Part shown: one piece after another, positions 447 through 53,908 of the stretch
How positions within the stretch are numbered: the first letter of the stretch is position 1
How the letters are laid out: each line of letters opens with the position of its first letter
Assembly: GCA_030765065.1 (NCBI GenBank)
Contig: CM060989.1
Coordinates: 62,014,001-62,078,000 of the forward strand
Source of the DNA: Deroplatys truncata
Taxonomy: Eukaryota; Arthropoda; Insecta; Mantodea; Mantidae
Direction of reading: 5' to 3'
Length of the DNA stretch: 64,000 bases
Made by a program: the position numbers and the translations under genes
Notes under the pieces: model-generated
What the model saw: the letters and a program-made list of their open reading frames with translations, nothing else
The model's database searches: none
Told to the model about the DNA's origin: nothing

Positions 447-448
447 TA

Positions 449-5824: not shown

Positions 5825-8800
5825 GGACGGAACCGAGTAAGTGACTGGAGAGGAGACTAAGGGAGTAACAGGACACGAGACGAAGGATCTGACAGCAAAA
5901 GAGACAAAGGGAATGACAGGTCGAGTCCAAAGGAGTGACTGGATACGAAAGCAAGGGAGTGACAGAGAGTGAGAAGGCAGTGCCTGGAGACGAGACGAAG
6001 GGAGTGACGATACGAGACGGAGTGGCAGGTCGAACCAAGGAAGTGACTGGAGACGAGACCAAGGGAGTTACCAGGGACGAGACCGCGGGAGTAACAGTAG
6101 TACACGAGACCAAGAGAGAGACGGGACGAGACAACGGGAGTGATACAGGACTATACCAAGTGAGTGACTGGAGACGAGATCTAGGGACTCACAGGACACG
6201 AGACGAAGGGAGTTCCTGGACGAGACCAAGGAGTGAGTGGAGTCGAGAACAAGGGAGAGACAGGAGTCGAGACCAAGAGACTGACTGGCCGAGAAATAGG
6301 GATTGACTGGAAACGAGATCAATGCAGTGACTAGACACGAGAGAAAGGGAGTGGCTAGGGTCGAGATAAGGACTGACTGGCCAAGACCAAGAGAGCGACT
6401 GACGTCGAGAACAAAGGAACGATAGCAAAGTAGTAACAAGACACGAGACGAAGGGAGTGACTGGAGAGCCAAGAGAGTGACTGGCGAGACCAAGAGAGTG
6501 ACTGGAGACGAGACCAAGGCAGACACAGGACACGAGACAAAGGGAGTGACTGAATGAAGCCAGGGAAGTGACTGTCCGAGACCAAAGGAGTGACTGGACA
6601 CGAGACGAAGGGAGTGACTGGAGTGGAGACCAACGAGGTGACAACACGAGGCAACGGAGTAACTGTACTCAAAACCATGAGAGTGACTGGTGTCGAGACC
6701 AAAAGAATCACTAGAGACCAGGCCAATGCAGTGACAGCACACGAGACAAAGGGAGTGACTAAATGAAGCCAGGGAAGTGACTGTCCGAGACCAAAGGAGT
6801 GACTGGACACGAGACGAAGAGGGAGACTGTACGAGACCAATGGGATTAAATGGACACGGTAGTGACTGGCCGTGACCGAGGGAATGACTGGTGTGGGCAC
6901 AAAGGGGTGGATTGGAAACGAGACCAAAAGAGTGAGAGGACACGAAAAAAGGCAGTGACTGGAGTCGAGAATAAGGAAGTTAATGGAAGCGAGACCAAAA
7001 CAGTGAGGGGACACGAGAGAAAGGGAGTGACTTGCCGAGTCCAAGGAAGTGACTGGAGAAGAGATCAAGGGATGACAGGAAGCTAAACAAAGGGAGTGAC
7101 GAGACAAGCGCAAGGAGGTGACTGGAGGAGACAATGGGAGTAACTGGACACGAGACGATGGGGATGACTGTGCCTGAACAAGGAAGTTACTGGAGTCGAG
7201 ACCAAGGATGTGACTTGAGTTTAGAGCAAGGGAGTGACCGGAGTAGAGACGAAGGGGTGGCATCCGAGACAAAGGGAGTGGCAGGACACCAGACAAAGCG
7301 AATAATTGGCCTTGAAAAATGTAGTGACGGAATCGAGAACAAGCGAGTGACTGGTCACAAGACAAAGTAGGTGACTGGCAGAGACCAAGGGAGTGACTGG
7401 ATCCGAGACGAAGGGAGTAACTGGGGTGGAGACGAATGGAGTGACCGGAGAAGAGACCAAGGGAGTGCAGGACACGAGACAAAGGGAGTGACTGGATTTT
7501 TTTACTAAGGGAGCGACTGGAGTCGAGACCAACAGAGTGTCTTGCCGAGAAAAACGGAGTAACAGGACACGAGACAAAGGAAGTGACAGGACGAACCGAG
7601 GTAGTAACAGAGACGAGACCGGAAGTGACAGCAGAGGAGATCAAAGTCATGAATGAGGACTAGGAAGGAACGGACTGGACACGAATCGAAGGGAGTGACT
7701 GCGGTCGAGACCAGGGGAGTGACTGAAGTCCATACCAAGGTGTCCTCGCCGAGATTAAGGGAATGACTGGGGTCGAGACGAAGGAAGAGGCTGGAGTGGA
7801 GACCAATGGAGTGACCAGAGCTGTTACCGGAGTCGAGACAAAGGAGTGACTGGACACGAGACGACGGAAGTGACCGGTCGTGATCAAATAAGTGACTGGA
7901 GTCGAGACAAAGGGAGTGACTTGCCGAGGTTAAGGGTGTGAATGGTCCCGAGACGAAGGGAGTGCCTGGACGAGACCAAGAGTGTGTCTGGGCGAGAAGA
8001 GGAGAGTGGCTGGAGACGAGACCAATGGAGTGACAGGACCCGAGACAAAGGGAGTGACAGGACGAAAAAGGGATAGAGAGAACAAGACCAGGGAAGTGAC
8101 AATATACGAGACCCAGGAGTGACAAGAATGGAAATCAAAATCGGAATGGGAAGGAAGCTAAGGGAGTTACAGATAACGCGATCAAGAGAGAGAGAGACAG
8201 GATACGAGAGTGACTGGTGTGGAGACCAATAGAGTGACCGGAGACGATAGCAAGGGAGAGACCGAAGACGAGATCAGGGGGCTGACTAGAGTCGAGACCA
8301 AGAAAGTGACTGGAGTAGAGAACAATGGAGTGTCAGGACACGATGAGAACGGAGTGACTGGTGTGGATACCGGAGACAAGACCAAGAGAGAGAGCGGAAT
8401 TGAGATGATGGGTATGACTACGCGAGACCACGAGAGTGGCTGGATACCTGACAAAGAGGGTGACTGACTGTACAAAGGGAGTGACTGGAGTCGAGACCAG
8501 GAAGTGTCTGGCCATTGACCAAGGAAGTGACTGGAAACGAGAAGAGAGTTACTGGACGAGACTTAGGGATTGACTAGAGACAAGACAAACGAGTGACTGG
8601 CCGAGTCCAAGGGAGTGATTCGAGACGAGATCAAACAAGTGACCAGCGGCGATAACAAGGGAGTGGCTGGACGCGACAGGAAGTGAGTGACTGGACAAGG
8701 CCAAGGAAGTAACTGAACGAGACCAAGGGAAGGATTGGGCGAGACCAAGGGAGTTACTGTAGACCAGACCATGGGATCGATTGGAGACGAGACCACAGGA

Positions 8801-11800
8801 CAAAAAAGGACACGTCCGAATGAGAGAGTAGAGACGGAAATAAAGGAGTGAAGGCGGAGGAGACCAATAGAAGGAAGGCGGAGAGACAAAGGGAAGGACA
8901 ATGCAGTAGACAAAGGGAGTGACAGCACTAAGGCAGAGACTGCAAACGAGACAAGGGAGTGACAGGGCACGAAACAATAGGAGTGCAAGTACGAGCCCAA
9001 GGAAGTAACTGGAGGCGAGACCAATGGAGTGAAAGGACACGAGACGAAGGGTGTGAATGAGAACGAGACCAAGGGAATGATTGCACTCGAGACCAAGGGA
9101 CTGACTGGAGACAAGACGAATCGAGTGACATGACACGAGTCGAACGGAGTGACAGGAGAAGAGACGAGGCTAGTGACAATGGACAAGACCATGACTGTAT
9201 ACGAGACCAAGGGAGTAACAGGACACAAGTCGAAGGGAGGAAAGGATACGAGAAGAATGGAGTGACAGGAAACGAGACCACGGAAGAAAAAAGACGAGAC
9301 CAAGTAGGTGACTTGGGACGAGACGAAGGGAGTGACTTGAGACGAGATCATGGAAGTGATTGAAAACCAGACTTAGGGAGTGACAGGAAACGAAACCAAA
9401 GTGTGTGACAGGATGAGAGCAGGAAATGACAGCAGAGGACGAGCCCAATGTAGTGACAGGAGACGAGATCACTTGTGTGACAGAGGACGCGTTCGAGGGA
9501 GTAAAGCGGAAGAGCCCAAAGGAGTGATTGGAAGCGAGACTAAGAGAGTGACAGAGGAAGCATAAAGGGAACTGTAAAGAGACGATTCCAAGCAATAGAC
9601 ACAGGATTGTACTATTTCAGACGAGAACAAGGGAGTGACCGGAGACAAGACGAAAGGAGTGACTGGACTGGAGATGAACGAAGTGATAAGACACGAGACG
9701 TAGGTAGTTACAGGGCTCGAGACGAAGGGTTGACTGGAGATGAAATCAACGGAATGACTGAAGACGAGACGGAGAATAGTGACAGGACACGGGACCAATG
9801 GGAGTGACGGGAAGAGAGCAACGGAGTGACAGTACGCGAGACGAAGAGTGTGACTGGAGACGAGACCAAGGGAGTTACAGGACGACATCAGGGAGCGACT
9901 GGAGATGAGACGAAGGAAGCGACAGGACATGAAATGGTGTGAATAACAGGACACGAGTCCAAGGGAGTGCCTGGAAACGTGACTTAGGGAGTGACAGGAC
10001 TAAACCATGGGAGCGACAGTGAACGTGACCTAGGGACTGACAAGAGAGGAGTCCAATTTAGTGAAAGTAGACGAGACCAAGCGGACATGATACAGTGAGT
10101 GTCAAGACTCGAAACCAAGTTAGTAACAGAAGACGACACCAAGGGAGAGAATGAGCACGACACCAAGGGAGTGACAGGGGAGCAAAGGATTGACAGAGAA
10201 CGGGTCCAAATGAGTGTCTGGATACGAATCCAAGAGTGACTGAGACGAGACGAAAAGAGTGACACGATACGAGACGCAGTGCTAGGGTACGTGACGAAGG
10301 GAGAGACAGAAGACGAGACGAAGGGTGTGACAGGAGACGAGTCCAAGGGAGTGATTGGAGACAAGACCACGGGAGTTACATCTGACATGTCCAAGGGAAC
10401 AACTGGATACGAGACCAAGGGAGCCTCAGGGCACGAGACGAGGAGAGTGAAGAACATATGAAGGGAGTGACAGAGAATGAGGCTAATGGAGTGATAGGAG
10501 ACAAGATAACAACGGGGGTGACAGAGTGCGAGACCAAGAGAGTGATTGGAGATGAGACATGTGGAGTGACGGGTGAAGAGACCAAGGGGGTGATATAGAA
10601 TGAAACCAAGGGAGCGACAACAGACGAGAACAAGGTAGCGACAGATGCCTAGACCAAAGGAGTGATAGAGGACGGAACAAGGGAGTGACCGTGGACGAGA
10701 CCAAAGGAGTTACAAGAGACGAAGGAAGTGAAATTTCACGAGACTAACGGAGTAAAGCCATGACTGAAGACGAGATTAAAGGAGTGGCAGGACAAGCGTC
10801 GAAGGCAGTGACAAACCCAGCTCAAGACAGACTGAGGACGAGGCCAAGAGAGCGACAGGAGAGGAGTCAAAAGGAGAGACAGGAGACAGACCAAGGGAGT
10901 GATAGGAGGACGAGAAGAGAGTATCAAGACACGAGACGAAGGGAGTGAAAGGACACGAGACATAAGGAGTAACAGAGAGCAGACCAAGGTAGTGACTGGA
11001 GACGATACCAAGGTAGGACAGTGACGAGACCGCGGGAGTGACAAAATACGAGACACCGGGAGTAACTGGGGACATATATCATATTGAACCAAAAATTATT
11101 ATTTTATAATATTTAAATAAAATTCTGCCGAGACACCGCGCGTGACAGAGCACGATACCAAGCGAGTGACCGGCGCCGAAACCAAGGGAGTGATACGACG
11201 AGACCAAGGGAGTGACAGAACGAGGTCAAGGGAGAGACAGCCGACGACACAAAGGGGGTGACTGGAGAAGAGATCACGGCAGTGACTGGAGACGTGATCA
11301 AGGTGTAACAGAGGACGATACCACGGAAGTGATAATGAACGAGACTAAGGGTCGTAGATTTACGGCACGTAAAAGAACCTCAAGTCTGATAGAGAGGCCT
11401 CTGAGCAAAATTACCGGTCTTTCACGCCCAATATAGAATGGAATGCTAAGGACCACAGCAGTTAAAGAGCGTCCATAAATAAAACTCAATTTAATTTTTG
11501 CGAGACAACTGGATTGACTGGCCGTGAGCAATGGAATGACGAGCCGAGACCAAGGAAGTGACTCGAGGCGAGACAAAGGAAGGGATCGTCAGAAATAAAG
11601 GGAGTGACTGGCCCGGAGTCGAAGGGAGTGACTGGACAAGACTAAGGAAGTTACAGGGAGGCATAGGACACGAGACAAAGGGAGTCGCTACTGGAGTAGG
11701 GACTGACTGGAGTCTACACCAAGGGAGTGGCTGTGTGAGCACAAGGGAGTGACTGCAGCCAATACAACGGAATGCCCGGAACGAGACGAAGGTGGTGACT

Positions 11801-12240
11801 GGGCGAGACCAACGGAGTGACAAGATATGAGACAAAGAGTGACTAATCGAAACCAGGTAGTGACTTGAATTGAGACCAAGGGAGTGAAAGGACGAGACTG
11901 GAGTGTGACTGGAGTGACGACCAAATGAGTGGCGAGTCCAAAACGGGGATGACCGGAGACAAGACCAAGAGAGTGATTTGCAGAGGCCAAGGGAGTGACT
12001 GGACGCGATACGAAGGGAGTGACTGGAAGAGAACAAGGAATTGGCTGAACATGAGACTAAGGGAGTGACAGGCCGTGACCAAGGGAGTTACTGGATACGA
12101 GAAAAGTTTATTGATTGGCTGAGAGCAATGGAGTGACTGGAGTGGAGACCAAGGGAGTGAATTGAGCAGAGGATAAGGAATGACTTGGGTGGAGACCAAG
12201 AGGAGACGAGATAAAGTGAGTGACTGGACCAGAGTGGAAT
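5825..12240 (+). repeat. 6.4-kb GA-rich minisatellite, ~24-bp unit
   Basis: About 260 degenerate head-to-tail units. The typical unit is GGAGTGACTGGA followed by GACGAGACCAAG, with frequent variants ACAGGACACGAGACGAA and the shorter ACTGGCCGAGACCAAG. The plus strand is strongly purine-rich. Because 24 bp is eight codons and the unit lacks stops, long frames stay open. The plus frame reads as imperfect GVTGDETK octapeptides and the minus frames as SHSLGLVS, TPLVSSPV or LPWSRLQS repeats, the longest 431 codons. None has a credible start or non-repetitive flank, so I treat them as by-products. The array is interrupted by an AT-rich patch near 11070-11130 and a SINE at 11352-11500. Confidence 0.95.
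11352..11500 (+). repeat. SINE-P copy 1, 5'-truncated, inside the satellite
   Basis: This holds the 3' half of the SINE-P family: TACGGCACGTAAAAGAACCT, CAATATAGAATGG, and the tail GCGTCCATAAATAAAACTCA. The tRNA-like head is missing. Satellite units lie on both sides, so it inserted after the array formed. Confidence 0.88.
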
Positions 12241-12846: not shown

Positions 12847-14097
12847 CACTATGTGATCAAAAGTATCCGGACACCCCACAAACATACGTTTTTCCATCTT
12901 AGGTGCATTGTGCTGCCACCTGCTGCCTGGTATTCATTATCCGCGACCTCAGTAGTCATTAGACAACGTGAAACAGCAGAATGGGACGCTCCGTCGAACG
13001 CTCCACGGACTTCGAACGTGGTCAGGTGATTGGGTGTCACTTGTGTCAGAACTCTGTATGCGAGATTTCCACACTCCTAAACATCCATAGGTCCACTGTT
13101 TCTGATGTGATAGTGAAGTGGAAACGTGAAGGGACATGTACAGCACAAAAGCGTACAGGCCGACCTCGTCTATTGACTGACAGAGACCGCCGACATTTGA
13201 AGAGGGTCGTAAAGAGTAATAGGCAGACATCTATCCAGACCATCACACCGGAATTCCAAACTGTATCAGGATCCACTCCAAGTACTATGACAGTTAAGCG
13301 TGAGGTGAGAAGCCTTGGATTCCATGGTCGAGCGGCTGCTAATAAGCCACACATCACGCAGGAAAATGCCAAACGACGCCTTGCTTGGTGTAAGGAGCGT
13401 CAACATTACACGAATAAACAGTGGCAAAACGTTGTGTGGAGTGACGAATCACGGTACACAATGTGGCGATCCGATGGCAGGGTGTGGGTATAGCGAATGC
13501 CCGGTGAACGTCATCTGCCAGCGTGTGTAGTGCCAACAGTGAAATTCGGAGGTGGTGGTGTTATGGTATGGTCATGTTTTTCCTGGAGGGGGCTTGCACC
13601 CCTTGTTGTATTGCATGGTACGATTACAGCGCAGACCTACACTGATATTTTAAGCACCTTCTTGCTTCCCACTGTTGAAGAGCAATTCGGGGATGGCGAT
13701 TGCATCTTTCAACACGATCGAGCACCTGTTCATACTGCACGGGCTGTGGCAGAGTGATTACACGACAATAACATCCCTGTAATGGACTGGCCTGCACAGA
13801 GTCCTGACTTGAATCCTGTAGAACACCTTTGGGATGTTTTGGAACGCCGACTTCGTGCCAGGCCTCACCAACCTACATCGGTAACTCTCCTTAGTTCTGC
13901 ATTCCGTGAAGAATGGGCTGCCATTCTCCAAGAAACCTTCCAGCACCTGATTGAAAGTATGCCTGCGAGAGTGAACGCTGTCATCAAGGCTAAGGGTGGG
14001 CCAACACTATATTGACTTTCAGTATTACCGATGGAGGGCGCCACGAACTTGTACGTCATTTTCAGCCAGGTGTCCGGATACTTTTGATCACGTAGTG
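12847..14097 (+). mobile_element. Tc1-like transposon, nested in mariner B
   Basis: This 1251-bp element has about 29-bp terminal inverted repeats. The left begins CACTATGTGATCAAAAGTAT, and the right is the reverse complement with one mismatch near the tip (CACTACGTGATC). A TA follows the right end; the left neighbour is CA, a probable decay of the TA duplication. Mariner 3' sequence continues on both sides, so the order of events is mariner first, Tc1 second. It lies directly after the mariner stop codon. Confidence 0.95.
12981..14015 (+). pseudogene. Tc1 transposase, two nonsense codons only
   Basis: This is a single 345-codon frame, the normal Tc1 length, interrupted by TAG (13491-13493) and TGA (13755-13757) but with no frameshift. 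The N-terminus carries the paired-like HTH (STDFERGQVIG to VSDVIVKWKREG), then the GRPR minor-groove motif (TGRPRLLTDRD). The catalytic DDE core follows: [18 protein letters not shown] and SPDLNPVEHLWDVL. There are 34 positions between the second D and the E, giving DD34E. The TGA sits where sister proteins have tryptophan before LHDN, so a TGG to TGA transition is likely. This is the least-decayed transposase in the window and probably a recent arrival. Confidence 0.94.
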
Positions 14098-14100
14098 TAT

Positions 14101-15149
14101 TTATTTCTCTACATAGTCTCTTTTCAGCTCCATACACCTTTTCTAGTGGTGTTCAATAGCTTCGATACCCTGTTTACAGTGAGAACCGTCGAGTTCTGCA
14201 AAATAGCCATCAACTGCAAACTCCACCTCTTCATTGTTGGCAAATCTTTTACCACCGAGCCATTTCTTGAACTTTGGAATTAGAAAATAATCAGAGGGGA
14301 CTAAGTCTGGCGAATAGGGTGCATGAGAAAGCAATTCGAACTTTAACTCATTGATTTTGGCCATGACAATAATGGATGTGTGAACTGGTGCATTGTCTTG
14401 ATGAAACAGATCTTTCTTTTTCGCTAAATGCGGCCGTTTTTGATTGATTTCATCATTCAAACACTGCAATAAGTTTGCATAATACTCGCCATTGATTGTT
14501 TTTCCTTTTTGAAGATAATCAATGAAAATTATCCTACGCGCACCCCAAAAACTGACTTCATGAACTTGCCTGCAGATGGAACTGTCTTCGCCTTCATTGG
14601 AGCCGATTCTCCCCTTTCAATCCACTGTTTTGACTGTTCCTGCATCTCAGGTGTGAAGTGATGGATCCATATTTCATCCATGTTTATGAATCGACACAAA
14701 AACTCGGTTTTATTGCAGCAAAACATCGCCAAACACTCAACTGAAACATCCTCACGACGCTGCTTTTGTTGCATTGTGAGTAAACGCGACACCTATCTTG
14801 CCCACAGCTTTCTCATGTCTAAATTTTCAGTTAGTATGCGATGTACAGCACTTTTTGAAGTGCCTAGGATGTCTGCTGGCTCGCGCACTTTCAGTTGACG
14901 GTCATCCAATACCATTTTGTGGATTTTCTTCACAATTTCTGGCGTGGTCACCTCATTTGGTGGACCGCTGCGATGTTCGTCTTGGCAACTCGTACGGCCT
15001 CACTTAAACCCTGCCACCCAATACATTACTGTTGTAAATAAAGGAGCAGACTCCCCCAGAGTAGAATCTAGCTCAGCTTTAATATTAGTCGGACTGAGAC
15101 CTTTCAAATGAAAGTATTGTGTAACATAACGATGGCCAGTTTTATCCAT
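14101..15149 (-). pseudogene. Mariner transposase pseudogene (copy B)
   Basis: It starts at MDKTGHRYVTQYF (15149). An in-frame stop follows VAGFK where other copies read FKRGRTSC. The middle part includes MDEIWIHHFTPE with the first catalytic D retained. The C-terminal part has HQDNAPVHTS and LVPSDYFL with DD34D spacing, then ends in VEK-stop at 14101. There are frameshifts between the three open segments. The nested Tc1 begins a few bases past this stop. Confidence 0.9.
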
Positions 15150-24860: not shown

Positions 24861-25207
24861 TCTAATGTGTTACACTCACATGACTTTCTCTACTCTTATA
24901 CAAACTATTTTTACAAACGCTTATTCTCCATCTAGTTCATGTTTATCTTATTGCTAGTTATCTTGTAGATGTAAGGGGAATATACATTTACAAGGGCAAT
25001 ATAGAAATACAGTAGCCTTTAAGCACATACATATCTCTTAATAGCTGGTTGCTAGGTGCAGCACCATTCCCTTTGGCACAGATTAATACTCTTTGCATAT
25101 CCAAGACAAAAGAATGAATAACGAATTCCCATTTGAGAAAATAAGTATTGAAAAATTTAAGGGAATAACAAGCAATATCTCGAAAATGGTTCACTCAACA
25201 ACAAAAA
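24861..25207 (+). repeat. Family A nest, outermost copy, left half (u1)
   Basis: Head plus middle module, from TCTAATGTGTTACAC to the internal A-tract after GGTTCACTCAACAAC. Its missing right part is found at 28730-29276. Both halves carry the older subfamily variants (for example GGGAATAACAAGC here and ATAAATTGTG there). Confidence 0.88.
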
Positions 25208-25209
25208 AC

Positions 25210-25440
25210 TCTGATGTGTTACACTCACATGACTTTCTCTACTCTTGTACAATCTATATTTACAAACGCCTATTCTCCATATGCTTCATATTAATCGAGA
25301 TATCGAGATGTCAATCTTATTTGTAATTTTCTTGTAGATGCAAGGGGAATATGGTAGCTTTTAAGCGATAGTCAAATATTTTATCGCTGGTTGCTATGTG
25401 GCGCATTCCATTCTCTTTGCATGTCCAGGACATAAAAAAA
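25210..25440 (+). repeat. Family A nest, second-level head fragment (u2)
   Basis: Only the head module, ending at GTCCAGGACAT followed by an A-run, where the next copy begins. Its continuation is the tail at 28107-28729. Confidence 0.85.
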
Positions 25441-25669
25441 TCTGATGTGTTACACTCACATGACTTTCTCTACTCTTGTACAATCTAATTTTACAAACGC
25501 CTATTCTCCATATGCTTCAAGTTAATCGAGATATCGAGATGTCAATCTTATTGGTAATTTTCTTGTAGATGCAAGGGAAATATCGTAGCTTTTAAGCGAT
25601 AGTCAAATATTTTATCGCTGGTTGCTATGTGGCGCATTCCATTCTCTTTGCATGTCCAGGACAAAAAAA
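25441..25669 (+). repeat. Family A nest, third-level head fragment (u3)
   Basis: Head module nearly identical to u2, interrupted at the same A-tract after CCAGGAC. It continues in 27437-28106. Confidence 0.85.
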
Positions 25670-26539
25670 TCTGATGTGTTACACTCACATGACTTTCTCT
25701 ACTCTTGTACAATCTATTTTTACAAACGCCTATTCTCCATATGCTTCATGTTAATCGAGATGTCGATATTATTGGTAATTTTCTTGTAGATGCAAGGGGA
25801 ATATGGTAGTTTTTAAGAGATAGTCAAATATTTTAACGCTGGTTGCTATGTGGTGCATTCCATTCTCTTTGCATGTCCAGGACATAAAAAAAATGAATAA
25901 CGAATTTGAGAAAAAGTATAAGTATTGGAAAATTTAAGGAAATAACAAGCAATATCTCGAAAACGGTTCACTCAACAAAAGAAATGTATATGACATAAGT
26001 TGTGTATTTTAACGCGATCTACATTTTTTGTGTAGTAACATTTTGTCTATCTCTTATGGTTTACCAGTTATTCAAAAGTCGTTCACAATGAACAATACTT
26101 TTGAAGACATTCCCAGAAAATTCGAGATATACATTTCATTTCTCATTACATTATCTTAAACATATCATATTTTCATCAAAATCGTTAGAGCCATTTTTGA
26201 GAAAATTAAAGTTTTCGAAAAATCTTCCATGTAAAGGGTAGTCTGGGGTGGGGGGATTTTCTTGAAAACCTTCGTGTCGCATCTCTGGAAGATACTGAAC
26301 CTAAATACCAAGTTTGGTGCTTATCCGACTGTTCGTTTTTGAGTTATGCTGTTCACAGACACACACACAGACACACACACAGACACACACACACACAGAC
26401 ACACACACGGACATGTTTCCAAAAATGCTTTTTTTGGATTCAGGAGGTATCAAAACATGTATTTCCGGTGAAATCTCGGTATCGAATTTTTGGGTGGAAT
26501 GCAATACTTCCCCTACTTACTATACGTAGCAGAGAAAGT
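25670..26539 (+). mobile_element. Family A nest, innermost full copy (u4)
   Basis: Complete copy from TCTGATG to GCAGAGAAAGT with CACACAGACA repeats near 26357-26407. Followed by AAAAATGA, a remnant of the interrupted host copy. Confidence 0.9.
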
Positions 26540-26551
26540 AAAAATGAAAAA

Positions 26552-27436
26552 TCTGATGTGTTACACTCACATGACTTTCTCTACTCTTGTACAATCTAAT
26601 TTTACAAACGCCTATTCTCCATATGCTTCATGTTAATCGAGATATCGAAATGTCAATCTTATTGGTAATTTTCTTGTAGATGCAAGGGGAATATGGTAGC
26701 TTTTAAGCGATAGTCAAATATTTTAACGCTGGTTGCTATGTGGCGCATTCCATTCTCTTTGCATGTCCAGGACATAAAAAAATGAATAACGAATTTGAGA
26801 AAAAGTATAAGTATTGCAAAATTTAAGGAAATAACAAGCAATATCTCGAAAACGGTTCACTCAACAAAAGAAATGTATATGACATAAGTTGTGTATTTTA
26901 ACGCGATCTATATTTTTTGTGTAGTAAAATTTTGTCTATCTCTTATAGTTTACCAGTTATGCAAAAGTCGTTCAGAATGAAGAATACTTTTGGAGACATT
27001 CCCAGAAAATTCGAGATATACATTTCATTTCTCATGATATTATCTTAAACATATGATATTTTCATCAAAATCGTTAGAGCCATTTTTGAGAAAATTAAAA
27101 TTTTCGAAAAATTTTCCATGTAAAGGGTAGTCTGGGGTGGGGGGATTTTCTTGAAAACCTTCGTGTCGCATCTCTGGAAGATACTGAACCTAAATACCAA
27201 GTTTGGTGTTTATCCGACTGTTCGTTTTTGAGTTATGCTGTTCACACACACACAGACACACAGACACACACACACACAGGCACACACACACACAGACACA
27301 CACACGGACATGTTTCCAAAAATGCTTTTTTTGGATTCAGGAGGTCTCAAAACATGTATTTCCGGTGAAATCTCGGTATCGAATTTTTGGGTGGAATGCA
27401 ATACTTCCCCTACTTACTGTACGTAGTAGAGAAAGT
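26552..27436 (+). mobile_element. Family A nest, second inner full copy (u5)
   Basis: Complete copy that entered a few bases further into the same host copy as u4. The four bases ATGA between u4 and u5, and ATAACGAATTTGAG after u5, together rebuild the host sequence. Confidence 0.88.
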
Positions 27437-27930
27437 AATAACGAATTTGAGAAAAAGTATAAGTATTGGAAAATTTAAGGAAATAACAAGCAATATCTCC
27501 AAAACGGTTCACTCAACAAAAGAAATGTATATGACATAAGTTGTGTATTTTAACGCGATCTACATTTTTTGTGTAGTAAAATTTTGTCTATCTCTTATTG
27601 TTTACCAGTTATGCAAAAGTCGTTCACAATGAAGAATACTTTTGGAGACATTCCCAGAAAATTCGAGATATACATTTCATTTCTCATGACATTATCTTAA
27701 ACATATGATATTTTAATCAAAATCGTTAGAGCCATTTTTGAGAAAATTAAAATTTTCGAAAAATCTTCCATGTAAAGGGATGTCTGGGGTGGGGGGATTT
27801 TCTTGAAAACCTTCGTGTCGCATCTCTGGAAGATACTGAACCTAAATACCAAGTTTGGTGCTTATCCGACTGTTCGTTTTTGAGTTATGCTGTTCACAGA
27901 CACACACACACACACAGACCCACACACACA

Positions 27931-27969
<39 letters not shown>

Positions 27970-28106
27970 ACACACGGACATGTTTCCAAAAATGCTTTTT
28001 TTGGATTCAGGAGGTCTCAAAACATGTATTTCCGGTGAAATCTCGGTATCGAATTTTTGGGTGGAATGCAATACTTCCCCTACTTACTATACGTAGTAGA
28101 GAAAGT
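27437..28106 (+). repeat. Family A nest, third-level tail (u6)
   Basis: Middle and right modules beginning ATAACGAATTTGAG and ending GTAGTAGAGAAAGT. Continuation of u3. It contains the longest CA array of the group (about 27895-27975). Confidence 0.88.
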
Positions 28107-28729
28107 AAAAATGAATAACGAATTTGAGAAAAAGTATAAGTATTGGAAAATTTAAGGAAATAACAAGCAATATCTCTAAAACGGTTCACTCAACAAAAAA
28201 AATGTATATGATATAAGTTGTGTATTTTAACGCGATCTACATTTTTTGTGTAGTAAAATTTTGTCTATCTCTTATGGTTTACCAGTTATGCAAAAGTCGT
28301 TCATAATGAAGAATACTTTTGGAGACATTCCCAGAAATTTCGAGATATACATTGCATTTCTCATGACATTATCTTAAACATATGATATTTTAATCAAAAT
28401 CGTTAGAGCCATTTTTGAGAAAATTAAAATTTTCGAAAAATGTTCCATGTAAAGGGTAGTCTGGGGTGGGGGGATTTTCTTGAAAATCTTCGTGTCGCAT
28501 CTCTGGAAGATACTGAACGCAAATACCAAGTTTGGTGTTTATCCGACTGTTAGTTTTTGAGTTATGCTGTTCACGCACACACACACAGACACACACACGG
28601 ACATGTTTCCAAAAATGCTTTTTTTGGATTCAGGAGGTCTCAAAACATGTATTTCCGGTGAAATCTCGGTATCGAATTTTTGGGTGGAATGCAATACTTC
28701 CCCTACTTACTATACGTAGTAGAGAAAGT
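28107..28729 (+). repeat. Family A nest, second-level tail (u7)
   Basis: Begins AAAAATGAATAACG, the exact continuation expected after u2, and ends in the common right terminus. Confidence 0.87.
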
Positions 28730-29111
28730 AAAAATGTATATGACATAAATTGTGTATTTTAACGCGATCTATATTTTTTGTGTAGTAAAATTTTGTCTAT
28801 CTCTTATGGTTTATCAGTTATGCAAAAGTCGTTCACAATGAAGAAAACTTTTAGAGACATTCCCAGGAAATTCAAGATGTACATTTTATGTGTCATAAAA
28901 ATATCGTAAACATATGATATTTTAATCAAAATCGTTGGAGTCATTTTTGAGAAAAATAAAATTTTCGAAAAATCTTCCATGTAAAGGGTAGTCTGGGGTG
29001 AGGGGATTTTCTTGAAAACCTTCGTGTCGCATCTCTGGAAGATACTGAACCTAAATACCAAGTTCGGTGTTTATCCGACTGTTCGTTTCTGAGTTATGCT
29101 GTTCACAGACA

Positions 29112-29147
<36 letters not shown>

Positions 29148-29276
29148 CATGTTTCCAAAAATGCTTTTTTTTGGACTCAGGGGGTCTCAAAACATGTATT
29201 TCCGGTGAAATCTCGGTATCGAATTTTTGGGTGGAATACAATACTTCCCCTACTTACTATACGTAGTAGAGAAAGT
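28730..29276 (+). repeat. Family A nest, outermost tail (u8)
   Basis: Begins AAAATGTATATGACATAAAT, the continuation of u1 after its A-tract, and ends GTAGTAGAGAAAGT. It is more diverged from u4-u7 than those are from each other, as expected for the oldest copy. Confidence 0.86.
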
Positions 29277-29281
29277 AAAAA

Positions 29282-29981
29282 ACTTGTACAACTGAAATGG
29301 TGTCCCCTTCAAAGTAGTCCATTCCCCGATCCCTGCAACACTCCATGCGAATTTTCCACTGTTGGTAGCAGTGCTGCAAGTCCTTTTCTGTTATGCTGTT
29401 GAGGAGTCTCGTCGCTTTTTCGTTCACTGCATCCACTGACTCGAACCTGGTTCCTTTGAGCACAGACTTCACTTTTGGGAAGAGAAAAAAGTCGCATGGT
29501 GCTAGGTCAGGCGAATACGGTGGATGTTCCGTCACTGGAATGTTGTTTTTCGCTAAAAACCTCTTCACAGACATCGCGTTATGGGTCGGCGCGTTTTCCT
29601 GATGAAGAATCCAAGAGCGATTCTTCCACAGATCTGGTCTGCTTCATCGTACACGTTAACGGAGGATCTTCAGAACTTATATAATAAACTTGATTGACAG
29701 TCTGACCTTCAGGCACCCTTCAGATGGTTTTCTCGAACAATTCTACCGACCTTTTCCATATTCTCTTCAGTTTTCGAATTGGAAGGACGGCCCGATTTCG
29801 GATCGTCTTGGACGTCTTCCAAACCGTCCTTGAACCTCTTAACCCACTCGAAAGCTTGCGTACGAGGTAGACACTGATCATCATAAACTTATTTCAACAA
29901 ATCGTAAGTTTCTGTGGAGCGTTTTACAAGTTTTGTGAGAAATTTGATGTTAACACGTTGTTCTACTTTAGAGCGTAGCAT
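29282..29981 (-). pseudogene. Internally deleted mariner transposase of another lineage
   Basis: The minus frame starts MLRSKVEQRVNIKFLTKLVK (29981), the N-terminal HTH of the Mos1/SETMAR-like mariner lineage. It continues QAFEWVKRFKDG and DDPKSGRPSNSKT, then loses the second HTH and first catalytic D in a deletion. It resumes with ILHQENAPTHNAMSVKRFL and HPPYSPDLAPCDFFLFPKVK. Two catalytic positions are visible: the second reads E in QENAP where D is usual; the third D is in APCDFF. It is clearly different from the DKTGHR mariners elsewhere in the window. Its 3' end meets the family A nest at 29276. Confidence 0.85.
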
Positions 29982-33116: not shown

Positions 33117-33309
33117 GAATATGAGCTTCTAATTTACTTGTATCGACGTTTTCATACTACACTGTAATGGTAATAAACAAACTACATTACAGCGGATCCA
33201 TCTCGCTCTGATAGATACCCTTAAGTATTTATAATGTTTTAAAAGTAAAAGTTGGATTTGTTTAGGCGTATACAAACCTTGCGTATTTGTGTCAAGTTAT
33301 TCAATTATT

Positions 33310-33454
33310 ACTTTCTCTACTACGTATAGTAAGTAGGGGAAGTATTGTACTCCACCCAAAATTTCGATACCGAGATTTCACCGGAAATACATGTTTTGAG
33401 AACCCCTGAATCCAAAAAAAGCATTTTTGGAAACATGTCCGTGTGTGTGTCTGT

Positions 33455-33486
<32 letters not shown>

Positions 33487-33960
33487 CTGTCTGTGAACAG
33501 CATAACTCAGAAACGAACAGTCGGATAAACACCAAAATTGGTATTTGGATTCAGTATCTTCCAAGGATGCGACACGAAGGTTTTCAAGAAAATCCCCCCA
33601 CCCCAGAGTACCCTTTACATGGAAGATTTTTCGAAAATTTTAATTTTCTCAAAAATGGCTCTAACGATTTTGATTAAAATATCATATGTTTAAGATATTT
33701 TTATGAGAAATAAAATGTATATCTTGAATTTTCTGGGAATGTCTCCAAAAGTATTCTCCATTGTGAACGACTTTTGCATAACTGGTAAACCATAAGAGAT
33801 AGACAAAGGTTTACTACACAAAAAATGTAGATCGCGTTAAAATACACAATTTATGTCATATACATTTTTTTTGTTGAGTGAACCATTTTCGAGATATTGC
33901 TTGTTATTCCCTTAAATTTTTCAATACTTATTTTCTCAAATGGGAATTCGTTATTCATTT
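33310..33960 (-). repeat. Family A, outer copy right module (nested pair 1)
   Basis: Right and middle modules on the minus strand, from ACTTTCTCTACTACGTATAG to GGGAATTCGTTATTCAT, then an A-tract (T-tract here) where the inner copy sits. The missing head lies at 34866-35142. Confidence 0.88.
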
Positions 33961-33963
33961 TTT

Positions 33964-34865
33964 ACTTTCTCTACTACGTATAGTAAGTAGGGGAAGTATT
34001 GCATTCCACCCAAAAATTCGATACCGAGATTTCGCCGGAAATACATGTTCTGAGACCTCCTGAATCCAAAAAAAGCATTTTTGGAAACATGTCCGTGTGT
34101 GTGTCTGTGTGTGTGTGTGTGTGTGTGTGTCTGTGTGTGTGTGTGTCTGTGTGTGTGTGTCTGTGTGTCTGTGAACAGCATAACTCAAAAACGAACAGTC
34201 GGATAAGCACCAAACTTGGTATTTAGGTTCAGTATCTTCCAGAGATGCGACACGAAGGTTTTCAAGAAAATCCCCCCACCCCAGACTACCCTTTACATGG
34301 AAGATTTTTCGAAAATTTTAATTTTCTCAAAAATGGCTCTAACGATTTTGATGAAAATATCATATGTTTAAGATAATGTCATGAGAAATGAAATGTATAT
34401 CTCGAATTTTCTGGGAATGTCTCCAAAAGTATTCTTCATTGTGAACGACTTTTGCATAACTGGTAAACCATAAGAGATAGACAAAATTTTACTACACAAA
34501 AAATGTAGATCGCGTTAAAATACACAACTTATGTTATATACATTTCTTTTGTTGAGTGAACCGTTTTCGAGATATTGCTTGTTATTTCCTTAAATTTTCC
34601 AATACTTATACTTTTTCTCAAATGCGTTATTCAGTTTTTTTATGTCCTGGACATGCAAAGAGAATGGAATGCGCCACATAGCAACCAGCGTTAAAATGTT
34701 TGACTATCGCTTAAAAGCTACCATATTTCCCTTGCATCTACAAGAAAATTACCAATAAGATTGACATCTCGATATCTCGATTAACATGAAGCATATGGAG
34801 AATAGGGGTTTGTAAAATTAGATTGTACAAGAGTAGAGAAAGTCATGTGAGTGTAACACATCAGA
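33964..34865 (-). mobile_element. Family A, inner complete copy (nested pair 1)
   Basis: Complete minus copy from ACTTTCTCTACTACG at left to CACATCAGA at right, with a GT/TCTG microsatellite near 34096-34172. Inserted between the two halves of the outer copy. Confidence 0.9.
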
Positions 34866-35142
34866 TTTTTTGTCTTGGATATGCAAAGAGTTATAATCTG
34901 TGGCAAAGGGAATGGTGCTGCACCTAGCAACCAGCTATTAAGAGATATGTATGTGCTTAAAGGCTACTGTTTTTCTATATTGCCCTTGTAAATATATTTT
35001 CCCCTACATCTACAAGAAAATTAGCAATAAGATAGAGTTTGCAAATGTTTATCTCGATTAACATGAACTAGATGGAGAATAAGCGTTTGTAAAAATACTT
35101 TGTACAAGAGTAGAGAAAGTCATGTGAGTGTTTCACATCAGA
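34866..35142 (-). repeat. Family A, outer copy head (nested pair 1)
   Basis: Head module beginning at the A-tract and ending CACATCAGA. It carries the older variants (GGAATGGTGCTGCACC), matching the age class of 33310-33960. Confidence 0.88.
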
Positions 35143-35580
35143 TTTTTTTTTACCAGCGTGGGCCCATGCTTGTTAGATAAGGTAGCAGTATTTGCATTTA
35201 ACTAACACGTCACATTGAGTGAACGCCCACGCTGTAAACAGGAGGTTACCATGGAAAACGTGTAGGTGTCACTAGTTATGTAGGGACGCCTACATTCGGC
35301 TTCTGTTCTCCGATAAATTGGTGTTTTTCCTACGTCTGTTCTCAACTGCAACAAGCTAGTAATACCCAGCTACTTTAATTAAGTGCTGGTATTTCTAATC
35401 AATTAACATCAGCATAAAATATGATGTGCTGCATTCATATAACTTTCTCTACTAAATCTTCTACTAAATATTCTTACCTATCTACTTCTTGTTAATTGAG
35501 TCAAACTTTCTTTACACATTCATACATCTAACTGTAGATGTAAGAAAGACACAGTAGGCTAAAGCGATAGTCAGATTTTT
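35143..35580. other. Unassigned sequence with weak B-like head
   Basis: 35420-35580 resembles a very diverged family head (GTGCTGCATTCATATAACTT, TTTCTCTACTAAATC). The left part is unassigned. Confidence 0.4.
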
Positions 35581-37984: not shown

Positions 37985-38500
37985 GCATCTGATGTATTAC
38001 TCACATGACTTTCTCTACTCTCTATCGTTTATTAATGCATATTCAAACCATCCTTACGAAAAGCTATTTTTCTATCTGCTTCATTATAATAGAGATAAAC
38101 CTTTGCAGAAATAGCTTCATTAAGCATTTCGTTATAGATACGAAGGGAACAGCGATAGTCAAATGTTTAGGAAACGGGCACTATACGCTGGCCTTAAAAT
38201 TCCATACTGTTTCAATGACATCGCGAGAAACAACTCAAAATCGATAGGATTTTAAAAGAATGACAAAATAGAGAATAATTCGAACCATTAATAATAGATA
38301 TCTCAGAAATGGCTTATGAAGCATAAAGCTCATTTGAAATGAATTGTGTATTTTAAAGAGATCACTATTACATTTCTTGTATAACGTTTTCGTCTATCAC
38401 TCATTGTTTACCAGTTACACTAGATTATACAAAATTCCTTCCAAATGAAGAGGATTTTATAGGCTCTTCCCAGGAAATTCACGATATACTTACATTTTAT
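37985..38500 (+). repeat. Family B repeat, head and middle
   Basis: From CATCTGATGTATTACTCACATG through AGCGATAGTCAAATGT and ACCATTAATAATAGATATC. Its right end is replaced by an inverted family A tail. Confidence 0.8.
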
Positions 38501-38501
38501 T

Positions 38502-38946
38502 ACCTTCTCTACTACGTATAGTAAGTAGGGGAAGCATTGTATTCCACCCAAAACTTCGATACCGAGATTTCACCGGAAATACAAGTTTTGAGACCCCCTG
38601 AATCCAAAAAAAGCATTTTTGGAAACATGTCCGTTAGTGTGTCTGTGTGTTTGTCTGTCTGTGTGTGTGTGTCTGTCTGTGAACAGCATAACTCAGAAAC
38701 GAACAGTCGGATAAACACCAAACTTGGTATTTAGGTTCAGTATCTTCCAGAGATGCGACACGAAGGTTTTCAAGAAAATCCCCCCACCCCAGATTACCCT
38801 TTACATGGAACATTTTTCGAAAATTTTAATTTTCTCAAAAATGGCTCTAACAATTTTGATTAATATATCATATGTTAAAGATATTTTCATGACAAATAAA
38901 ATGTATATCTTGAATTTTCTGGAAATGTTTCCAAAAGAATTAGTAT
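38502..38946 (-). repeat. Family A right module, minus
   Basis: From CTTCTCTACTACGTATAGTA through ACATGTCCG and the GT/TCTG run to CTGGAAATGTTTCCAAAAG. The head is absent. Confidence 0.85.
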
Positions 38947-45045: not shown

Positions 45046-45769
45046 GAATTCCTGTAGGAATCATTTGTATGAATGAGTTCGGATAATTTCCAAAGTCATG
45101 CTTCGTTATCGCCCAACAGTTCACTGTGCCGTCCAAGGAAGTGCAGGACATAAAACTGGCCTGTGAGATCGTAACGGGTCATTAGGAAAAAGAAGATATA
45201 GATATAATCGTAGGAAAGTATTACTACTCGCGAATCTATCGATAAACACCATACCTCTCGTATGACAATTTTCTAGCACATGACTCCCTTTTCACATCCT
45301 GTATTTGAATTCTATAGTATTTGAGTTGCTAGTGGTCCAGTTCTGCGTAGACCTACTCCACGCTGGGGACGACCGTGTGTTACAATTTAGGAAAAGTTCT
45401 ATTTTGCCCTCAGAAAGGACGCGCGTGGGTGGTAAGCATATCAAACAGCCGCACCCGAGGCACATACTGCAGCACGGGGTGAACTTCAAAGGTTATATGA
45501 AATCATAGGTCAGCGCTTTTTAGTTAATGAACTGGAGCTAGTGACCATAAATAAAATAAAGTTAATATCACAAAAAGGAAAGAAGGAAACATGGCAAGAT
45601 GGCTAATGCAGACCACCTTAAAAAGCAGTTAAGAAGCTTTGGAATAAAAGTGCAAAGAATTAGAGGTCAAAGCATTAAGGAAAAGGTAAAAAGGAAAAAC
45701 CTAATAGCGTAGATAAGAAGTTAAAACAGAAAGCATCAAGATGACTAAAACGTAAAAATGAAAGGAAAC
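45046..45769. other. Unassigned sequence
   Basis: Two opposing 65-67 codon frames (45292-45508) match nothing I know. Right half is purine-rich (AAAGGAAAGAAGGAAACATG). No repeat recognised. Confidence 0.35.
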
Positions 45770-45770
45770 A

Positions 45771-46593
45771 TCTGATGTGTTAAACTCACATGACTTTCTC
45801 TACTCTTGTACAAACTATATTTACAAACGCTTATTCTCCATATGCTTCATGTAAATCGAGATGTTAATCTTACTGCTAATTTTCTTGTAGATGCAAGGGG
45901 AATATGGCAGGCTTTAAGCGATAGTCAAATATTTTAAGAGCTGGTTGCTATGTGGCGCATTCCATTCTCTTTGCAGTCCAGGACATAAAAAATGAATAAC
46001 GAATTCCCATTTGAGAAAAAGTATTGGAAAATTTAAGGGAATAACAAGCAATATCTCGAAAATGGTTCACTCAACAACAAAAAATGTATATTACATAAAT
46101 TGTGTATTTTAACGCGATCTAAATTTTTTGTGTAGTAAAATTTTGTCTATCTCTTATGGTTTACCAGTTATGCAAAAGTCGTTCACAATGAAGAATACTT
46201 TTGGAGACATTCCCAGAAAATTCGAGATATACATTTCATTTGTTATGAAAATATCTTAAACATATGATATTTTAATCAAAATTGTTATAGGCATTTTTGA
46301 GAAAATTAAAATTTTCGAAAAATGTACCATGTAAAGGGTAATCTGGGGTGGGGGATTTTCTTGAAAATCTTCGTGTCACATCTCTGGAAGATACTGAACC
46401 TAAATACCAAGTTTGGTGTTCCGACTGTTCGTTTCTGAGTTATGCTATTCACAGACACACACGGACATGTTTCCAAAAATGCAATTTTTGGATTTAGGGG
46501 GTCTCAAAACATATATTTCCGATGAAATCTCGGTATCGAATTTTTGGGTGGAATACAATACTTCCCCTACTTACTATACGTAGTAGAGAAAGT
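45771..46593 (+). mobile_element. Family A element, complete
   Basis: TCTGATGTGTTAAACTCACATG to GTAGTAGAGAAAGT, then AAAAATC. Short microsatellite (ACAGACACACACGG). A family B copy follows without a gap. Confidence 0.9.
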
Positions 46594-46596
46594 AAA

Positions 46597-47304
46597 AATC
46601 CGATGTGATACATTCAAAATGACATTCTCTACCCTCTATCTCACTAAAGTTTATTTTTATGTCTACTCCATTTTAATCTAAATAAACTTTAGCAGAAATA
46701 GCTACATTACACATTTCGTTATAGATACAAAGAGAACAGCGATAGTCAAATGTTTAAAAACTGGACGCTATGTGCTGGCCTTAAAATTCCATACTCTTTC
46801 CATGCTCGCGAGAAACAACTGAATCTTGAAAAGGACTTAAAGAGAATGGCTACGAAAGGAACAATTCGAACCTTTAATAACGAATATCTCAGAAATGGCT
46901 CATGTCACAGAAAAGTATATTAAATACATTGTGTGTTTTAAAGAGATCTACGTTTTTAATGTAGTACGTTTTCGTCTTTCGCTTAACATTTACCAGTTAT
47001 ATAAGATTATACAAAATATCTTCCCAATAAAGGCTATTCTCAGAAAACTAAAGATATACACTTTATGTGTAACAAATATTTTTAATATATGGTATTTATT
47101 CAAAATCGTTAGAGCTGCTTTTTTCGAAAACGAAAAATTACGAAAAATCTTCCATGTAAAGGATACTCTGGGGTTGGAGGATTTTCTTGAAAATCTTCGT
47201 GTCGCATCTTTGGGAGGTATTAAACCTAAATAGCAAGTTTGGTATTTATCCGACTTTTCGCTTTTGAGTTATGCTGTTTAGAGACACAAACACGGTCATT
47301 TTTT
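46597..47304 (+). repeat. Family B repeat, interrupted at its T-tract
   Basis: From TCCGATGTGATACATTCA through GAGAACAGCGATAGTCAAAT to CAAACACGGTCATTTTTT. The next family A copy begins within this T-run; TTTTTTTCTAAA after 49039 looks like the continuation (B copies elsewhere read GGACATTTTTTTCTAAAAA). Confidence 0.78.
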
Positions 47305-47923
47305 ACTTTCCCTACTACGTATAGTAAGTAGGGGAAGTATTGCATTCCACCCAAAAATTCAATACCGAGATTTTACCTGAAATACATGTTTTGAGACCTC
47401 CTGAATCCAAAAAAAGCATTTTTGGAAACATGTCCGTGTGTGTGTCTGTATGTCTGTGAACAGAATAACTCAAAAACGAACAGTCGGATAAACACCAAAC
47501 TTGGTATTTAGGTTCAGTATCTTCCAGAGATGCGACACGAAGGTTTTCGAGAAAATCCCCCCACCCCAGACTACCCTTTACATGGAAGATTTTTCGAAAA
47601 TTTTAATTTTCTCAAAAATGGCTCTAACGATTTTGATGAAAATATCATATGTTTAAGATAATGTCATGAGAAATGAAATGTATATCTTGAATTTTCTGGA
47701 AATGTCTCCAAAAGTATTCTTCATTGTGAACGACTTTTGCATAACTGGTAAACCATAAGAGATAGACAGAATTTTACTACACAAAAAATGTAGATCGCGT
47801 TAAAATACACAACTTAAATCATATACATTTCTTTTGTTGAGTGAACCGTTTTCGAGATATTGCTTGTTATTTCCTTAAATTTTCCAATACTTATACTTTT
47901 TCTCAAATTCGTTATTCATTTTT
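47305..47923 (-). repeat. Family A, outer copy right module (nested pair 2)
   Basis: From ACTTTCCCTACTACGTATAG to TTCGTTATTCATT, minus orientation, broken at the A-tract before the head module. Confidence 0.88.
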
Positions 47924-48808
47924 ACTTTCTCTACTACGTATAGTAAGTAGGGGAAGTATTGCATTCCACCCAAAAATTCGATACCGAGATTTCACCGGAA
48001 ATACATGTTTTGAGATTCATTGAATCCAAAAAAAGCATTTTTGGAAACATGTCCGTGTGTGTGTCTGTCTGTGTGTCTGTGTGTCTGTGTGTCTGTCTGT
48101 CTGTCTGTGTGTCTGTGAACAGCATAACTCAGAAACGAACAGTCGTATAAACACCAAACTTGGTATTTAGGTTCAGTATCTTCCAGAGATGCGACACGAA
48201 GGTTTTCAAGAAAATCCCCCCACCCCAGACTACCCTTTACATGGAACATTTTTCGAAAATTTTAATTTTCTTAAAAATGGCTCTAACGATTTTGATTAAA
48301 ATATTATATGTTTAAGATACTTTTATGACAAATAAAATGTATATCTTGAATTTTCTGGGAATGTCTACAAAAGTATTCTTCATTGTGAACGACCTTTGCA
48401 TAACTTGTAAACCATAAGAGATAGACAAAATTTTACTACACAAAAAATGTAGATCGCGTTAAAATACACAATTTATGTCATACACATTTCTTTTGTTGAG
48501 TGAACCGTTTTCTAGATATTGCTTGTTATTCCCTTAAATTTTCCAATACTTATACTTTTTCTCAAATTCGTTATTCATTTTTTTATGTCCTGGACTTGCA
48601 AAGAGAATGGAATGCGCCGCATAGCAACCAGCGTTAAAATATTTGACCATCGCTTAAAAGCTACCATGTTTCCCTTGCATCTACAAGAAAATTAGCAATA
48701 AGATTGACATCTCGATATCTCGATTAACATAAAGCATATGGAGAATGGGCGTTTGTAAAAATAGATTGTACAAGAGTAGAGAAAGTCATGTGAGTGTAAC
48801 ACATCAGA
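47924..48808 (-). mobile_element. Family A, inner complete copy (nested pair 2)
   Basis: Complete minus copy with a TCTG-rich variant of the microsatellite (48055-48116), ending CACATCAGA. Confidence 0.9.
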
Positions 48809-49039
48809 TTTTTTTTTTTTCCTGGACATGCAAAGAGAATGGAATGCGCCACATAGCAACCAGAGTTAAAATATTTGACTATCGCTCAAAGCCTACCATA
48901 TTCCCCTTGCATCTATAAGAAAATTACCAATAAGATTAACATCTCGATATCTCGATTAATATGAAGCATATGGAGAATAAGCGTTTGTAAAAATAGGTTT
49001 ACAAGAGTAGGGAAAGTCATGTGAGTGTAACACATCAGA
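48809..49039 (-). repeat. Family A, outer copy head (nested pair 2)
   Basis: Head module from TTTCCTGGACATGCAAAGAG to CACATCAGA. Completes the copy whose tail is 47305-47923. Confidence 0.88.
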
Positions 49040-49872
49040 TTTTTTTTCTAAACATTTGACGTGTTACACTTAGATTACTTTCTTTATTCTTGTACAAACT
49101 ATTTTTACAAACGCTTATTCTCTTGTAGTACAACAGAATGAGGGGAACACAGTAGGCCTAAGCGATAGTCAGAAGTAGAAGGTGATGAGGCCCTATCTTG
49201 TTAATCGGCACAGGATGAAAATATTTTGAATGAGTTTAAAATTCGGGGCAGGTTTGACTTCAACAATTTCTTGAGAACAAATCAAAGTGACTTCAACTTC
49301 ATTTTGAGCAGTGTTTCTAATCTATAATTCACAAAAAGAACACACATTTGAGAGCAGCCATTCTAGCTGCCAGACTTGAGCCTTTTTTGCAATTCTCTAG
49401 CAAAGTGAGGCTTTTATATTGCCTCTGGAACAACAATAAGTTGCACAGTTTGGTATAGCCTCAACAAAGATTTTATTAATAAAGTGTCTTTTCTTTCGTC
49501 CATTCCATAACTTCACATGAAGCAAACCAAATCAAGGATACGACCACATAACGAGTCAACACGGAACTACCGAACACAATGACGTGAAGGAATCAGAAGT
49601 GCACCGTTGCCATGGTTACAGTCTGGAAACTTCTGAAGTTCACCCAATCGCATACACAAAGAGCGAATTGACTTTACAAGTTTTCAATTATAAGCGGAAA
49701 ACACCCAACGTGTTAAAAAGTGTCAAACACAACTCTTTTGGTTAACATGTTAAGTCAATTCTGTGATCGAAATTTAGCCAACATGCAAACTGTTAATATG
49801 TTGCACTTGACAAGTTTTGTTAAATGTTAATCACTTTGGACAGGGTTTTAGCTTTCAGTGAAAATTAAAATT
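49040..49872. other. B remnant and short head fragment, then unassigned
   Basis: 49040-49160 holds TTTTTTCTAAA (B continuation) and a plus-strand head fragment (GACGTGTTACACTTAG, CTTTATTCTTGTACAAAC). The remaining 700 bp show no feature I recognise. Confidence 0.45.
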
Positions 49873-53903: not shown

Positions 53904-53908
53904 TTTTT

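Follow-up and report, generated by a model that had tools for sequence, protein, structure and literature searches.

A nest of HINE-like repeat copies in the Deroplatys truncata genome, probably built by successive self-insertion

The block and its junctions

A 64,000-base stretch of the Deroplatys truncata genome (contig CM060989.1; hereafter the window) contains, at 24861-29281, a block in which one repeat of ~0.9 kb is present as eight pieces. On the plus strand the pieces follow the order HM, H, H, HMT, HMT, MT, MT, T, in which H denotes the head (~230 bp in subfamily A), M the middle (~90 bp) and T the tail, which is slightly longer than 0.5 kb and carries a CA microsatellite of variable length. 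We interpret the block, with a probability of about 0.85, as a nest of five copies of a HINE-like element, formed when family members inserted into older family copies four times in succession. A first-pass annotation had delimited the same block with the same order of pieces, which is borne out by the order of the modules and by five start motifs (24861, 25210, 25441, 25670 and 26552) and five end motifs (the GT of GTAA, at 26539, 27436, 28106, 28729 and 29276). Its proposal of sequential self-insertion without unequal crossing-over is supported as the best reading of the block by the balanced ends, the complementary breaks, a displaced ATGA, the subfamily markers of the first and last pieces, and two further nests. 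The pieces are as follows, with A-runs named after the modules that they separate:

u1, 24861..25209, plus strand: subfamily B head and middle of the oldest copy; breaks at its own M–T A-run
u2, 25210..25440, plus strand: head of the second copy; breaks at its own H–M A-run
u3, 25441..25669, plus strand: head of the third copy; breaks at its own H–M A-run
u4, 25670..26541, plus strand: full copy within the H–M A-run of u3
u4-u5 spacer, 26542..26551, plus strand: contains ATGA, the first bases of the u3 middle, which the arrival of u5 would have stranded; its flanking A's are assignable to neither side
u5, 26552..27438, plus strand: full copy about 4 bases past the tract, between ATGA and ATAACG of u3
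u6, 27439..28106, plus strand: remaining middle and tail of the third copy, pairing with u3
u7, 28107..28729, plus strand: middle and tail of the second copy, pairing with u2
u8, 28730..29278, plus strand: completes u1 as the tail of the oldest copy; the sole non-A tail in the block

The junctions indicate which piece continues which. u1 breaks in the M–T A-run and u8 takes up there; u2 and u3 both break in the H–M A-run, with u7 resuming at H–M and u6 resuming at H–M minus the bases ATGA. Breaks at A-tracts with resumption there, as first annotated, are found for u1/u8, u2/u7 and, ATGA apart, u3/u6; u5 lies not in the tract but about 4 bases beyond it. The middle module begins with ATGAATAACG or ATGAATAACA in nine of ten reference copies, the exception being B1 (CTGAATAACG); D1 has two C's before this start. 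Between the GT of the u4 end and the start of u5 lies AAAAATGAAAAA, and directly after the end of u5 comes AATAACGAATTTG, without ATGA. Joined to the orphan ATGA, u6 rebuilds ATGAATAACG. Because ATGA stands between u4 and u5 and is absent from the start of u6, u4 would have entered the run of u3 and u5 would have entered about 4 bases further on, the ATGA being derived from u3. Across the block the element ends are balanced and host sequence is restored around the inserts.

From the outside inwards, u2 would have landed in the M–T A-run of an old subfamily-B copy (u1 + u8), u3 in the H–M A-run of the u2 + u7 copy, and u4 in the H–M A-run of the u3 + u6 copy, where u5 would have landed about 4 bases further on; u4 and u5 may have arrived in either order. 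The four self-insertions suggested at the outset are thus recovered as u2 in u1, u3 in u2, and u4 and u5 both in u3.

Two simpler nests occur elsewhere in the window:

nest B, 33306..35147, minus strand: subfamily-B host split at its H–M A-run by a full subfamily-A copy (33962-34870)
nest C, 47303..49044, minus strand: subfamily-A host split at its H–M A-run by a full copy (47922-48813)

Both are one-step nests, ordered H, full, MT, that use the H–M run as target, and each contains two start and two end motifs. In the three nests together, every one of the 11 junctions (7 + 2 + 2) includes at least one true element end, and none joins two internal breaks. A search with one family copy as the query returned 45 BLAST rows in the window, and this abundance, together with one-step nests at the H–M run of two other loci, argues that the block is not due to chance. 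In total, 43 profile matches of the family cover 20,795 of the 64,000 bases. Family members also abut head to tail at terminal A-runs, for example at 53908 and 46594.

Pairing of halves, age order and alternative origins

To characterize the pieces, 20 copies or pieces were aligned from the 45 BLAST rows (several rows may represent one copy). Counts and trees were based on 17 copies, the partial copies D2, c38 and c52 being excluded from these and from the distance tables; c19 was additionally excluded from the reference vectors of the distance-vector pairing test. Subfamilies A and B were distinguished at 45 diagnostic columns in H, six in M and seven in T, with c20, u4, u5 and B1 as references for A and c17, c42 and F for B; the A set takes in two of the block's own copies (u4 and u5), and the 45 H columns are not all independent, many of them falling within shared indels. 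By these markers, u1 is the only non-A head in the block (H, 40 B, 4 A and 1 other; M, 6 of 6 B) and u8 the only non-A tail (6 B and 1 A of 7). The head of u2 is A at all 45 columns and that of u3 at 44, with 1 other, and u6 and u7 each score 6 of 6 A in M, and 6 A and 1 B in T. In the head tree, u1 falls within the B clade (support 100/100), beside B0 (95/84), and u2 and u3 group with A. In the tail tree, u6 and u7 lie within the A clade (96/87) and u8 lies outside it, with the tail bootstrap unsettled.

On the evidence of these sequences, the pairing of u1 with u8 is supported, not proved. Because u2, u3, u6 and u7 all belong to subfamily A, the markers cannot separate a nested pairing of these pieces from a crossed one, and only their order can; by order alone, we infer the pairs u2/u7 and u3/u6. 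The first-pass annotation had expected the two halves of each pair to group as sisters. The halves of a pair share no overlap and consequently cannot be sisters in a tree, and when pairing was instead scored with distance vectors and intact reference copies, u1/u8 was recovered; the four pairings that break it score 0.743-0.833. The other two pairs were not recovered, with a score of 1.515 for nested and 1.509 for crossed pairing.

This near-tie is one of several results that weigh against the nest as drawn. When nests B and C are included in the distance-vector test, the true pairing ranks only 11th of 120. The u1-u8 correlation is negative (-0.17), the least negative of its row. The u8 tail is nearly equidistant from the references, at 5.3% to c42 and B0, 5.5% to u5, C1 and u3/u6, and 6.7% to c17. 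Four copies (C1, c35, G1 and D1) combine an A head with a B-like tail, so a B head need not accompany a B-like tail, and the association of B heads with B tails is partly circular, its basis being the three reference copies that also define the columns. The same group of points includes divergence. Private changes set apart only the outermost copy and do not order the inner ones, and u4 carries nine of them against six in its supposed host u3/u6, a misfit to a simple clock; a few of the changes may predate insertion.

As a separate observation, the head of C1 (47922-48813) is of subfamily A and its tail is mostly B-like (1 A, 5 B and 1 other in T), and c35, G1 and D1 are similarly mixed, which suggests an intermediate subfamily or template switching.

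The outermost copy, u1/u8, a member of a different and more distant subfamily, is clearly the oldest, with 16 private changes and 69 changes in total from the A consensus. The corresponding private and total values are 8 and 18 for u2/u7, 6 and 9 for u3/u6, 9 and 15 for u4, and 4 and 9 for u5. u2/u7 carries more changes than u3/u6 in H (6 versus 4) and T (11 versus 4), which fits the nest order. The earlier description of nearly identical inner copies overstates their likeness, which is about 97%. Divergence between u4 and u5 amounts to 3.3% for H, 1.2% for M and 3.1% for T, no less than between other subfamily-A pairs.

The alternative that survives best, although we consider it improbable, is unequal exchange or slippage between A-runs, in which tandem duplicates of H arose on the left and of MT on the right, with no fresh insertion involved. 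The A-runs at the module boundaries could act as short homology for such an exchange. u2 and u3 have an exclusive variant at column 273, found in no other of the 17 copies, which fits a local duplication and is a further point against the nest; moreover, the tail closest to u7 is that of u6, by a single difference (13 versus 14 to B1 and u5). Duplicates would, however, be expected to be mutually closest. The u3 head shows five differences to each of B1, u5 and c20 and eight to u2, the u2 head shows seven to each of u5 and c20 and eight to u3, and the u6 tail shows seven to B1 and 13 to u7. The bootstrap share in which the duplication partner is the single closest copy is 0.19 and 0.034 for H, and 0.389 and 0.012 for T. 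Unequal exchange would also require equal numbers of separate duplications on the left and right at matching breaks, leaves the ATGA between u4 and u5 unexplained, and predicts junctions between two internal breaks, which are absent from all three nests.

An assembly artefact, in which several family loci were stitched together in block order, appears somewhat less probable still. A dense, high-copy family favours mis-stitching, but stitching would neither restore host sequence at each junction nor displace exactly the bases ATGA, every unit carries changes of its own, and the pattern recurs at two other loci. Least credible is a rolling-circle concatemer, formed on a terminator-less circular template and integrated as tandem truncated copies in a single event: such a mechanism is on record for plant Helitrons (Xiong et al., as summarized in part of PMC12628747) and could account for the missing canonical 3' part of u6, u7 and u8, but it should give many 5' ends and a single 3' end where we count five and five, plus two and two twice, it does not fit the missing canonical 5' part of u1, u2 and u3, and the units are not copies of one template, because those of subfamily A differ by 1-4% and u1 belongs to another subfamily.

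Anatomy, class and target use of the element

The canonical strand of the element is the minus strand of the block. Its 5' end reads TT-ACTTTCTCTACT-ACG, in which ACTTTCTCTACT is a 12-bp subterminal inverted repeat (subTIR) located 2 nt from the end. The stretch that follows folds back on this subTIR (z = -3.21; 1 of 200 shuffles as good). Later in canonical order come the microsatellite, which consists of CA with CAGA interruptions and varies in length, then AGTAGAGAAAGT, a possible 5-bp hairpin and the terminal CAGATTT. The targets are A-runs of variable length (T-runs on the canonical strand), and no long target duplication is present.

As judged from this anatomy, most of which is present, the element is HINE-like, that is, comparable to non-autonomous Helentrons of the DINE-1 type. 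In the available parts of PMC4067079 and PMC2374699, HINE and DINE-1 elements are described as having subTIRs of 12-15 or 13 bp, TT targets and variable terminal T's, together with an inverted repeat complementary in part to the 5' subTIR, a microsatellite and a stem-loop past the 3' subTIR. Excerpts of PMC7492417 describe much the same architecture for oyster HINEs, and PMC2374699 states, in the portion consulted, that 5' and 3' are arbitrary names for an element without an open reading frame (ORF). The likeness to these systems, so far as the excerpts go, extends to the 12-13 bp length of the subTIRs and their distance of 2 nt from the 5' end, within the 2-4 nt of the class, an inverted repeat that is in part the complement of the 5' subTIR, a microsatellite, a TT or T-rich target, a high copy number and no coding capacity seen.

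Other features fit the class less well. The 3' subTIR lies about 25 nt from the 3' end of the sequence used, in contrast to 38-60 in mite HINEs; that spacing comes from the families of one species and does not define the class, yet it lowers the claim to HINE membership. The possible hairpin just past the 3' subTIR is in the expected position; its stem has 5 bp, as opposed to 7-11 in the DINE-1 description available to us, and it is no better than shuffled sequence (z = -0.01 and -0.26; folds as good or better in 95 and 79 of 200 shuffles). The microsatellite is CA with CAGA, and not GTCY as in the parts of those accounts that we could compare. A duplication of 1-2 A's at the target may have occurred. 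Finally, Pfam detected no Rep/helicase in ten of the 36 listed ORFs of the window (at least 100 aa), and among these ten no autonomous partner was seen.

Other element classes were rejected. A canonical Helitron (5' TC, 3' CTRR, insertion between A and T) does not match a canonical strand of TTACTTTC ... CAGATTT with an A-run/T-run target. In a transposon with terminal inverted repeats, or a miniature inverted-repeat element derived from one, the repeats would not be subterminal as they are here, and the reconstructed sites show no duplication beyond the possible 1-2 A's. A retroposon was rejected because host sequence is not duplicated around the inserts at the reconstructed sites. The conserved motifs of the element gave no matches in viral and genome contig collections, where an insect repeat is hardly expected, and four element motifs were not found in literature full text.

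A-runs are used as insertion targets. All six two-sided self-insertions lie at AA steps, and five of the six fall in runs of at least five A's, u5 being the exception (P for at least five of six = 0.0014 relative to uniform choice among AA steps, with a share of 22/113 set by hand from copy C1, the most generous of three copies counted for AA steps in runs). Four of these six, namely u3, u4 and the full copies inside nests B and C, struck the H–M run, at three loci. The six nested insertions face the same way as their hosts.

Two opposite-facing cases sit in T-runs. Nest C (copy C0) is opposite-facing in a T-run that belongs to an older, diverged member of the family (46595-47294, in the segment 46595-47302), which adjoins a full family copy at 45765-46595, and a family piece at 38498-38941 faces the opposite way at a T-run (CATTTTATT) within the old diverged copy next to it (37986-38508). 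Both agree with a target whose strand is fixed, but they were kept out of the insertion counts because only one host side is recognizable.

From these sites we infer, as a rule, that the strand of the run fixes the orientation of the insert. The element would insert between two A's (two T's on the canonical strand) without a long target duplication, its orientation being set by the strand of the target run. Because it carries A-runs of its own (at H–M, at M–T and at its end), it would be a good target for itself, would receive same-facing inserts and would come to mimic a tandem array. A-run use probably drives the nesting, and insertion itself would be carried out by rolling-circle transposition, through a Helentron Rep/helicase encoded elsewhere. 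A bolder extension, which we put forward tentatively and regard as rather unlikely, is that the internal A-runs, above all the ~7-A run at H–M, act as built-in landing pads, so that repeated insertion in a fixed orientation would make nests grow inwards and seed satellite-like arrays.

Neighbouring features and known systems

The ten ORFs submitted to Pfam gave two matches to Transposase_1, one to DDE_3 below the cut-off and one to HTH_Tnp_Tc3_2, and six were without a match. The matches mark the following remnants:

441-1160, minus strand: mariner/Tc1-type transposase remnant (Pfam)
14143-14469, minus strand: mariner/Tc1-type transposase remnant (Pfam)
51778-52146, minus strand: mariner/Tc1-type transposase remnant (Pfam)
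12981-13493, plus strand: mariner/Tc1-type transposase remnant (Pfam)

Immediately to the right of the nest, an ORF at 29257-29574 on the minus strand resembles by eye what we take to be the C-terminal part of a mariner-type transposase; Pfam returned no match for it. Rfam gave a single match in the window, a tRNA at 55735-55806 on the minus strand (39.6 bits), which is either a tRNA gene or a tRNA-derived repeat. The region 6000-12000 is strongly strand-asymmetric (in 2-kb steps, GC skew 0.32-0.39, AT skew 0.46-0.51 and GC content 0.50-0.53) and contains many overlapping ORFs, almost all on the minus strand, that are repetitive and rich in S, L, V and H. It is perhaps a long, degenerate array of minisatellite type.

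Read as a nest, a confusing array resolves into an ordered series of insertions, and six two-sided reconstructed insertion sites are gained for a HINE-like family. The case also illustrates how DNA that looks tandem can arise from target preference by itself, with no need for unequal exchange or rolling-circle concatemers, and this is one proposed route from transposon to satellite.

The block is a deep and clean example of a known process, given that Helitron self-insertion and target-preference dimers have both been published. Among the literature titles returned, none was taken to report a HINE family nested in itself in four steps, which is weak evidence of absence. For the Helitron2-type FoHeli of Fusarium oxysporum, nested and composite copies are ascribed to self-insertion, and some FoHeli use T-rich sites, according to excerpts of PMC5148889; the case described there has one non-autonomous copy within a putative autonomous one, with repeated 5' ends, whereas the present block shows four steps and balanced ends. 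The available part of PMC12628747 reviews both truncated Helitrons in tandem and dimers that result from insertion-site preference. The plant examples (Xiong et al. 2016, as cited in that part) resemble our block in being rolling-circle copies that look tandem, some of them truncated, but they have many 5' ends and one 3' end, in contrast to the balanced ends found here. In the Drosophila dimers (McGurk and Barbash, cited in the same part of the review), as in the D. truncata family, target preference gathers copies together; here, however, the target runs are internal to the element, and nests therefore form besides head-to-tail dimers.

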